From positions 124,001-188,000 of the forward strand of contig JAIZOF010000001.1 in NCBI GenBank assembly GCA_020525365.1: a stretch of DNA of 64,000 bases, in the 5' to 3' direction. Positions 19,721 to 22,524 of this stretch are shown here, piece by piece. Each line of letters begins with the position of its first letter. The stretch's first letter is position 1. Under the pieces are notes generated by a model that saw only the letters and a program-made list of their open reading frames with translations, was not told where the DNA came from and did no database searches. A program made the position numbers and the translations under genes. Source of the DNA: Sulfurovum sp. GTDB taxonomy: Bacteria > Campylobacterota > Campylobacteria > Campylobacterales > Sulfurovaceae.

Positions 19721-20776
19721 TTATGCGCCCATCTGTTTTGCAACTTCTGCTGCAAAATCTTCCTCTTCAATTTCGATACCTTCACCCACTTCAAGTCTAG
19801 TAAATACTATAATTTTTGCTTTACCATCAGATTTTTCTTCAAAGTACTCAGAAACAGTTTTAGAATCATCCATTACAAACTTCTGATCAAGTAGGCACTG
19901 CTCCTGATCAAGTGTTGTATTGTCAGAGATAAATCTTTCGAGCTTGCCAGGAAGGATTTTATCCCAAATCTTTTCGGGCTTTCCTTCTGCCTTAAGCTCT
20001 GCCTTAATCACCTCTTCTGCTGCCACAATTACTTCTTCTGTAAGTTGCATTCTTGAGATATACTGAGGAATATTTTTGAGTGGTTTTCCAAGACGCTCAA
20101 GTTCTTCATTTTCTTTTCTAATTGCTTCTATGCGTCCTTTAGTTTCTTCCAAAACATACTCAGGGTCAAAATCTTTATATGTAAGTGTTTTTGGTGCCAT
20201 TGCAGCTGCATGCATCGCAATTTCTCTGAGTATAGGTGTTACTTTTTCGCAAGTTTGTGTATCTTCACATGTGGCTGCAATAATAACACCATTTTGACCA
20301 TTTGAGTGAACATATCCACTTATAGCTGTTTTTTCATCACCCTTAATGAGTGCTGCACGTCTGACAACAAGATTTTCACCAATAATAGCAATGTTTTGAG
20401 CGAGGAACTCAGAAAATGGTTGACCATTTATTGTGGAAGCATTGATTGCTTCAGCATCTTCAAGACTATTGTTAAATGCATGCTCAACGACTTCACTCAT
20501 CAGTGCTTTGAATTTATCATTTTGTGCTACAAAGTCAGTTTGGGAATTGATCTCTACAATAACTGCTTTAGACTCTTCGACTTTAATGCCAATGGCACCT
20601 TCAGCAGCAGTTTTGCTTGCTTTTTTTGCAGCTGCACCAATACCTTGATCCCTAAGCCATTCGATTGCTTTATCTATATTACCTTCAGCAGCAGTAAGAG
20701 CTTTTTTGCAATCCATCATTCCCGCATCAGTTATTTCGCGAAGTTTTTTGATATCTTTTGGTCCAAAATTTGCCAT
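19721..20776 (-). CDS. tsf: Elongation factor Ts
   Basis: A 351-residue EF-Ts, the nucleotide exchange factor of EF-Tu. The N-terminal UBA-like domain (LREITDAGMMDCKKAL) is followed by the TDFVAQND motif that contacts EF-Tu. Residues about 180-280 form a coiled dimerisation region. It starts one base after the rpsB stop, with a GGAGG site inside the end of rpsB, so the two are one operon. The gene ends facing the small HTH gene; the 93-bp convergent gap has a nine-T run on the minus strand but no clear stem. Confidence 0.97.
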   Translation of the reverse strand: MANFGPKDIKKLREITDAGMMDCKKALTAAEGNIDKAIEWLRDQGIGAAAKKASKTAAEGAIGIKVEESKAVIVEINSQTDFVAQNDKFKALMSEVVEHAFNNSLEDAEAINASTINGQPFSEFLAQNIAIIGENLVVRRAALIKGDEKTAISGYVHSNGQNGVIIAATCEDTQTCEKVTPILREIAMHAAAMAPKTLTYKDFDPEYVLEETKGRIEAIRKENEELERLGKPLKNIPQYISRMQLTEEVIVAAEEVIKAELKAEGKPEKIWDKILPGKLERFISDNTTLDQEQCLLDQKFVMDDSKTVSEYFEEKSDGKAKIIVFTRLEVGEGIEIEEEDFAAEVAKQMGA

Positions 20777-20777
20777 A

Positions 20778-21791
20778 CTATGCCTCCACTAGTTCTTTTG
20801 CGTGTGTAATAGTTTCTTTAAAGTCACCTTTAAATTTATGCTTCTCTTCCATTACTTGAATTTGCTCTTCAGTCATGCTTGCAATGTCATTAAACGTATA
20901 GAAACCCTCGTTATTAAGTTTCTCGGCATAGACTTTTCCCACACCTTTGAGTTGCGTTAGGTTGTCGCCCTCATTCTTTTTGGCTTTTGGTGTTTCTATT
21001 GTTGGTGTTTCTGCTTTAGGGGAAACAGATGCCTCCTCTTTGACTTCAGAAACTACTTGCTCTACTTCTGTGGAGCTTGGTACCTCTTCAACATCTTCAC
21101 CATTTATTTCAGAAAATGCTACCTTGCCTTCAATGATTGCCTCTGCAATTTCTTTACAGAAAAGGTTGATAGAACGGATTGCATCATCATTTCCTGGAAT
21201 AGGATAGTCAATTACATCAGGATCACAGTTAGTATCAAGTGGTGCAACCACTTTCATGCCCAGCCTCTTTGCCTCTTTGACTGCAATATGTTCTTTAACC
21301 GCATCAACAACAAACATCATTTCAGGCAACTTTTTCATATGTCTGAAACCTTCAAGGTAAGAGTTGAGTTTCTCCTTCTTCCTGAGCAGCATCAGTGCCT
21401 CTTTTTTTGTTAAAAGATCAAGCTGTCCATTCTCTTCCATCTGTTCGATAATTTCAAGTTTTCTGATAGATTTTTTCATAGTTGGGTAGTTTGTCAGCAT
21501 GCCACCAAGCCATCTTGTTGCAACGTAAGGCATGCCACATCTCTCGGCATGCTCTTTAACTGCTTGGCGTGCCTGCTTTTTTGTGCCAACAAAAAGAACA
21601 GTTTGTCCTTCTGCCACCGCATCACGAACAATATTATATGTATATTTGAAATACCTGAGTGTCTTTTGGAGGTCGATGATATAGATATTTTTTCTTGCAC
21701 CAAAAATAAATTTCTTCATTTTTGGATTCCATCTTCTTGTCTGGTGTCCGAAGTGAACACCGCACTCTAGTAAGTCTTTCATGGTTACCAT
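20778..21791 (-). CDS. rpsB: 30S ribosomal protein S2 with long C-terminal extension
   Basis: Residues 1 to about 225 are a normal uS2 ([59 protein letters not shown]). S2 is usually 230-270 residues; this one is 337. The added part has an acidic, Ser/Glu/Pro-rich linker (about 232-278) and then a helix-hairpin-helix-like module ([17 protein letters not shown] and [16 protein letters not shown]). That module resembles HhH domains also seen appended to other ribosomal proteins and respiratory subunits. Its job is unknown. The start follows AAGGAGATAATT. A long structured leader precedes it. Confidence 0.96.
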
Positions 21792-21958
21792 AATTATCTC
21801 CTTGGTATATTAATATATAATTTGAGAAGCACACTGCTTCAACACCTGGTTTGATCCTCTGTAGTCCTTAGCGCCAAAACGCAACCATTCAAGGAATAAC
21901 TACATGTGTATTTTCCAAATTCAAACTATTGTATAGATAGCCCTGTTAAAGAATAAGG
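21792..21958 (-). ncRNA. Structured 5' leader of rpsB-tsf, candidate autoregulatory RNA
   Basis: A minus-strand TATAAT at 21970-21965 predicts a start near 21958, giving a leader of about 165 nt. It contains nested stems between 21903 and 21861: GTAGT with ACTAC, CCTT with AAGG (with a 4-nt bulge), and GCG with CGC around a TTTTGG loop. A second hairpin, GAAGCA-GTG-TGCTTC, lies at 21840-21826, just before an AT-rich stretch and the ribosome site. S2 represses its own operon in several bacteria. That this leader is the S2 binding site is inferred. Confidence 0.5.
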
Positions 21959-21964
21959 AACGCG

Positions 21965-21970
21965 ATTATA
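21965..21970 (-). promoter_or_regulatory. rpsB -10 promoter element
   Basis: TATAAT on the minus strand, followed by CGCG at the predicted start. It is the only perfect hexamer in the 250-bp gap between rpsB and the peroxiredoxin gene. A weaker TACAAT at 21933-21928 is an alternative that would give a shorter leader. Confidence 0.55.
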
Positions 21971-22041: not shown

Positions 22042-22524
22042 TTAAAGTTGTTTTGTTGCTATTTGAAGCTCCACTAATTTCTCTTTCACTATTCCAGCAT
22101 GCCCTTTTACACGTACTTTTTCCCACTTGGAAGCTATTTTTCCATTAGGATCGATGATAAAAGTGGAGCGTACCACTCCCATATACTCGCGTCCATAATT
22201 TTTCTTAAGTTGCCAACAACCAAAGAGAGTACAAAGTTCTTTCTCTTCATCAGAGAGTAGCATAATTTTTAACCCTTTTTTCTCAATAAAATTTCTATGT
22301 TTCTTTGGGCTGTCAGGACTGACACCTAGTACAATGGCATTAAGGTCTTCAAAGTCTGGTAATACCGTAGTAAAATCACATGCTTCAGTTGTACACCCTG
22401 GGGTATTATCTTTGGGGTAAAAGTAGAGTACAATCCATTTGCCTCTAACATCTCGCAGACAAATCTCTTCCTCATCTTGGTTTGGTAGACAAAAATGAGG
22501 TACCATATCACCAATATTTAGCAT
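22042..22524 (-). CDS. bcp: Thioredoxin-dependent peroxiredoxin (Bcp/PrxQ)
   Basis: A 160-residue atypical 2-Cys peroxiredoxin. The motif YFYPKDNTPGCTTEACDF carries the peroxidatic cysteine and, five residues later, the resolving cysteine, the arrangement of the PrxQ/BCP class. The family reduces hydrogen peroxide and organic peroxides using thioredoxin. An AGGAG site precedes the ATG. It is a single gene divergent from the small gene at 22621. Confidence 0.95.
   Translation of the reverse strand: MLNIGDMVPHFCLPNQDEEEICLRDVRGKWIVLYFYPKDNTPGCTTEACDFTTVLPDFEDLNAIVLGVSPDSPKKHRNFIEKKGLKIMLLSDEEKELCTLFGCWQLKKNYGREYMGVVRSTFIIDPNGKIASKWEKVRVKGHAGIVKEKLVELQIATKQL

Follow-up and report, generated by a model that had tools for sequence, protein, structure and literature searches.

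The rpsB-tsf operon of a Sulfurovum sp., on the minus strand of the 64,000-nt stretch of DNA analysed here (the window), is preceded by a leader, and the question raised by this locus is whether that RNA folds into a conserved regulatory element and, if so, whether the element stands for a class of its own. A sequence-only reading of the DNA had proposed a structured leader of about 165 nt that may bind S2 or sense a domain added to S2, and had raised the question of an epsilon class. The answer that we favour, with a probability of about 0.86, is that this leader belongs to the rpsB motif (t44) as a divergent member, and that excess S2 would bind its fold and repress translation of rpsB-tsf. 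The genes and expression signals of the locus are as follows.

19721-20776, minus strand: tsf, elongation factor Ts (PF00889, 8.5e-62; ORF coordinates)
20778-21791, minus strand: rpsB, ribosomal protein S2, 337 aa (PF00318, 6.5e-97)
21798-21803, minus strand: Shine-Dalgarno sequence AAGGAG, within the loop that a weak UACCA/UGGUA hairpin closes
21965-21970, minus strand: -10 box TATAAT of the predicted rpsB promoter, from sequence

According to the ORF coordinates, one base separates the rpsB stop from the tsf start, and a bcp-type peroxiredoxin gene (22042-22524) borders the leader on the side opposite rpsB (20778-21791). The TATAAT box places the predicted transcript start near 21958, and thus the leader, about 165 nt long, would extend from about position 21958 down to 21792 of the minus strand; on this prediction, the length first proposed was about right. 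Similar boxes lie 42-66 nt before the first helix of the leader (P1, below) in Sulfurovaceae, and 22-28 nt before it in most other families. At the other end, the UACCA/UGGUA hairpin (window 21783-21808), which encloses the Shine-Dalgarno sequence and part of the start codon, was found by RNAalifold in 13/13 Sulfurovaceae sequences without two-sided changes (window z -0.29), and because of this lack of two-sided changes we do not claim it as a conserved structure. The leader holds no intrinsic terminator-like site, the sole one on the minus strand lying inside the upstream gene (22165-22179). This weighs against a transcription attenuator in which S2 binding favours premature termination, a mode of control used by some widespread ribosomal protein leaders in other phyla (PMC4647458), and we regard attenuation here as very unlikely.

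The core of the leader in the window comprises these elements.

21844-21912, minus strand: S2 leader core (rpsB motif), namely, P1, J2/3, P3, GAGG and the pseudoknot strand, matched at 66.8 bits, E 8e-17, by R1, a covariance model of the leader core that has the window sequence in its training set
21899-21904, minus strand: P1 5' strand UGUAGU, six pairs in 36/36 aligned sequences, each with two-sided changes
21860-21865, minus strand: P1 3' strand ACUACA, followed by the conserved GAGG at 21856-21859
21871-21882, minus strand: P3 hairpin GCGUUUUGGCGC, with covariation
21883-21886, minus strand: J2/3, pseudoknot 5' strand GGUU, which U 21887 may extend by a fifth pair
21848-21851, minus strand: pseudoknot 3' strand AACC, which A 21847 may extend by a fifth pair

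Folding energy was dropped as support for this structure, since the single sequence folds no better than its shuffles (leader, z -0.02; core, z 0.19), and the window folded alone favours another fold over P1. As energy alone does not beat chance, the structure was decided by comparison with relatives. For this purpose, regions upstream of rpsB were taken from nearly all of 95 related genomes of about 20 families, the family names of numbered genomes being inferred from matching GTDB records. The same order of elements recurs among them: CA, a six-pair P1, AAUCCUU, GGUUGC, P3, GUU(G/A)A(U/G)G, the second strand of P1, GAGG and AAACC. Between families the sequence of P1 is fully replaced and its pairing retained, namely, UGUAGU/ACUACA in the window, and CACACC/GGUGUG, CGCAAG/CUUGCG, CCUCUC/GGGAGG and UCUGUC/GACAGA elsewhere. 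In this main type of leader P1 consists of six pairs plus a weaker three, and P2 is not evident; P3 is a helix of variable length, with 86.8% of cells paired and two-sided changes in 6/6 pairs.

Taken together, all 15 pairs of P1 and P3 vary among 36 sequences, 14 of them with changes on both sides. Pairing was found in 89.9% of cells, against 66.0% after shuffling and 30-53% in slid registers, and 167 cells were two-sided against 58; the shuffles take no account of relatedness among the sequences. The right arm was picked by the script partly by complementarity, which would inflate these pairing values; however, conserved sequence anchors both arms on either side, and RNAalifold, run without an input structure, recovered 11 of the 15 pairs, which counters this concern. 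A P1/P3 leader structure with covariation is therefore strongly supported by the alignments. Two of the complementary segments noticed at the outset proved real, GTAGT/ACTAC as the core of P1 (21899-21904 with 21860-21865) and GCG/CGC as P3; the third, CCTT/AAGG, is present in the window but falls outside the conserved structure, many relatives having GATG in place of AAGG. The pseudoknot (21883-21886 with 21848-21851) and a 5'-terminal hairpin (21913-21960) had been overlooked.

That pseudoknot joins the junction GGUU to the AACC downstream of P1, with which it can pair. In the main type it has four to five pairs (consensus GGUUGC/AAACC), of which pairs 1-3 are invariant and pair 4 shows one replacement of G-C by A-U (leader L083). 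Of 46 distinct combinations, 27 form the fifth pair, against 16.7 after shuffling and with 0/1000 shuffles as high, in a count where the script left two rows of family f13 one register off. Better evidence for the pseudoknot comes from the Sulfurimonadaceae, whose leaders (L188, L189, L199 and L204-L231, taken as 200 nt upstream of rpsB) are missed by R1. Their layout is that of the main type, and their pseudoknot has six pairs, formed in 98% of cells and with two-sided changes in five of the six, as in ACCGGU/ACCGGU, AUCGGU/ACCGAU, GUCGGU/ACCGAC, ACUAGU/ACUAGU and ACUGUU/AGCAGU; the right arm, first found by complementarity, is preceded by a conserved GAAGC(A/G)A, and only 18-42% of cells pair in slid registers. 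A Sulfuricurvum-like subgroup (L201, L217, L220, L223, L224, L226 and L231) has a different consensus, UCUCGU..ACGAAG.

The unimpressive folding energy of the window, no better than that of shuffles, would suit a chance structure in conserved upstream DNA. Because of the covariation, namely, two-sided changes in 14/15 helix pairs over about 20 families and a further, independent set in the pseudoknot of Sulfurimonadaceae, this explanation is already refuted and we leave it next to no weight.

The distribution of the element was examined with R1, a covariance-model check that the sequence-only reading had itself suggested and which bore out a structured leader. R1 matched 329 of 397 Campylobacterota genomes, in 61 of 68 genera and nearly always once per genome; most of the 328 genomes other than the window's own lie outside the training set. 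The genome of the window gave one match, besides which two marks, at E 2.9 and 5, are noise. Among 80 GTDB rpsB loci, 72 carried the match upstream of the gene, where it was expected, including those of Sulfurovum, Nitratifractor, Hydrogenimonas, Arcobacter relatives, Sulfurospirillum and Helicobacter; of the eight misses, two are contigs beginning at or inside rpsB, and the other six include Sulfurimonas and Sulfuricurvum. Conversely, rpsB lay just downstream in 30/30 loci fetched by the model.

How such a leader may work is suggested by E. coli, where uS2 is the translational autorepressor of rpsB-tsf, and where excess uS2, aided by bS1, binds a leader structure that excludes the ribosome site, by a mechanism whose details are unclear (PMC10931766). 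By analogy, the nascent rpsB-tsf mRNA would fold into P1 and P3, and the pseudoknot would tie their junction to the strand following P1. When production of S2 outpaces its uptake by 30S subunits, free S2 (in E. coli, with bS1) would bind this fold and block initiation at rpsB, and tsf, one base downstream, would drop together with it. We infer that S2 is the ligand, that its binding leads to repression, and that tsf is coupled to this control.

Two further hairpins, together with the distance to the start codon, set the Sulfurovaceae apart.

21913-21960, minus strand: P0, 5'-terminal hairpin UUCC..AUUC / GAAU..GGAA, specific to Sulfurovaceae
21826-21840, minus strand: P4, hairpin GAAGCA-GUG-UGCUUC between the pseudoknot and the Shine-Dalgarno sequence, lineage-specific

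Nearly all of 48 leaders from Sulfurovaceae form P0, with a mean z of -2.78 against dinucleotide shuffles (window z -1.64). The stems of P4 co-vary by eye (GAAGC/GCUUC, GAAGU/ACUUC and GAGGC/GCCUU; mean z -1.4), and RNAalifold did not call this hairpin on the gapped Sulfurovaceae alignment. P4 is the second hairpin near the ribosome site that had been seen in the window; it is real, but it occurs in Sulfurovaceae only and lies about 23 nt upstream of the Shine-Dalgarno sequence. P0 is of a type typical of mRNA protection, and pseudoknots are known to be bound by bS1 (PMC10931766), so the fold might be an element of translation or mRNA stability (a ribosome standby site, a bS1 pseudoknot site or 5' protection) and not a repressor site that responds to S2. 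Given that the core is located at rpsB, and that its architecture is common to the E. coli leader that does respond to S2, we consider such a role unlikely.

The spacer between the pseudoknot and the start codon has a median of 75 nt in Sulfurovaceae (range 31-203) and of 25.5 nt elsewhere (range 20-47); in the window, the rpsB start codon is 56 nt from the predicted S2-binding fold. To our knowledge, P0 and the long spacer with P4 are new features. Other variants were observed as well. A Helicobacter-like genus (f13 g41; L232, L233 and L234) has a minimal leader without P3, CACACACGCCCCGCCUUAAAGUGUUUUUAGGGAGCGUGGCGGCAAACUUUAAGGAG, in which the pseudoknot strand AAACUUU continues directly into AAGGAG. 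The Sulfurovum leaders L011, L017, L040, L051 and L089 have a further long hairpin, related in sequence among them (CAGCCUAAGUUAUGUUCUAUG..UAGAUGGCUUAGGCUG), between P4 and the Shine-Dalgarno sequence; in L017 the insertion amounts to about 130 nt. One Sulfurovum subgroup (L013, L015, L018, L019, L021-L023, L032 and L090) carries a hairpin-like insert (GAUUCGAAUGAUU..AAUUCGACUC) between GCGG and AAACC, in the linker from P1 to the pseudoknot strand.

Within the reading of the leader as an S2 repressor site, the long gap in Sulfurovaceae does not favour a mechanism in which the ribosome site is simply masked. The wide spread of distances between binding site and ribosome site in the phylum argues against such masking as a universal mechanism. 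It is tempting to speculate, as a possible if rather doubtful scenario, that one ancestral S2 leader split within the phylum into forms that couple the binding site to the ribosome site in different ways, namely, a minimal form (the Helicobacter-like genus), a long-pseudoknot form (Sulfurimonadaceae) and that of Sulfurovaceae, which would act from 31-203 nt away with added hairpins. If true, control would not proceed through masking of the ribosome site in all forms. Irrespective of this scenario, the natural variants uncouple the S2-binding core from the distance to the start codon, which bears on how S2 would repress translation when bound outside the ribosome site.

The idea that the leader senses the domain added to S2 found little in its favour. 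Residues 277-312 of S2 in the window form a C-terminal extension resembling HHH_5 (2.4e-5, just below the cut-off), and leader and extension do occur together in this gene. However, E. coli has the leader too, as do families in which S2 stops near residue 260-280; and family f6, which has a matching extension, has a gap of 26-29 nt. As the leader accompanies S2 proteins without the extension and spacer length does not follow it, the proposed link is unsupported and was rejected; we give sensing of this HHH-like domain hardly any credence. Tails similar to the extension (about 30-60% identity) were found in other Sulfurovum genomes as ORFs of their own (for example, G055:C19:83011-83337 and G046:C13:22209-22604), as though a single domain had been added to several proteins.

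Regulatory RNAs for the ribosomal proteins of E. coli reportedly have, for the most part, a narrow distribution, going by the title of work by Fu and colleagues from 2013 that is cited in PMC4647458 and PMC10931766. For S2, one leader architecture is retained through essentially a whole further phylum, including relatives of Helicobacter and Arcobacter. This leader is invisible to Rfam, which our alignments would allow to be extended.

With regard to known systems, the rpsB motif was described from Alpha- and Gammaproteobacteria with 'a few Epsilon-' members, and consists of P1, an optional P2 that is absent in many taxa, P3 and a pseudoknot from J2-3 to a strand after P1 (Meyer et al., 2009; PMC2704228). 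The Campylobacterota leaders are alike in lying upstream of rpsB, in having P1, P3 and a short or absent P2, and in the J2-3 pseudoknot to the strand past P1. They differ in that the published P1 is long, whereas in the main type P1 is short, P2 is not clearly present and the pseudoknot has four to five pairs; in that the few Epsilon- examples contrast with near-universal presence here; and in that the Sulfurimonadaceae, Helicobacter-like and Sulfurovaceae forms differ among themselves. The 20 new motifs of Eckert and Weinberg (2020), like this one cis-acting ribosomal protein leaders detected by covariation, include no S2 leader and none from Epsilonproteobacteria, and rpsB figures there only as the downstream gene of a Bacteroidia L13 leader (PMC7247131). 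Our literature search found no paper on an rpsB leader or its transcription start in Campylobacter or Helicobacter.

The Rfam family t44 (RF00127), the S2 leader that was characterised first, in E. coli, was compared directly. An Rfam scan of the window, as the sequence-only reading had advised, returned no relevant family, RF00127 being without a match at E up to 10 (one spurious match was to a human lncRNA). In all, 0/150 genomes of the phylum exceeded the gathering threshold of 44 bits (Rfam 15), which is a threshold of recognition and not a structural feature. Below it, matches of RF00127 fell exactly at the homologous position in 8 of 20 diverse leaders (22.7-29.7 bits, E below 1), and genome-wide it gave matches in 15/150 genomes, the best at 34.6 bits; of nine checked, seven lay directly upstream of rpsB and the two weakest elsewhere. 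In the reverse direction, R1 matched the E. coli K-12 leader weakly, exactly at the t44 position (17 bits, E 0.027).

Conserved structure, pseudoknot and place upstream of rpsB are found across the phylum in an E. coli-like architecture. Together with the cross-matches to t44 and the alignment with E. coli, the shared features of the rpsB motif make these leaders members of the known S2 leader and not a new class; an epsilon-specific class, raised by the sequence-only reading, was rejected, as the arrangement of P1, P3 and pseudoknot is the same as in E. coli. Common ancestry of the Campylobacterota leader and t44/rpsB motif is, on these comparisons, very likely, albeit not formally proven. 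The two systems differ in score, all leaders of the phylum falling below the 44-bit cut-off and that of the window going undetected, and they are alike in position, in CAC before P1 and GUGGAGG after it, its GAGG being found in E. coli as well, and in the pseudoknot, where the alignment sets GGUU/AACC against GGGGU/ACCCC of t44, with the GGUU of J2/3 as the apparent homolog of GGGGU.
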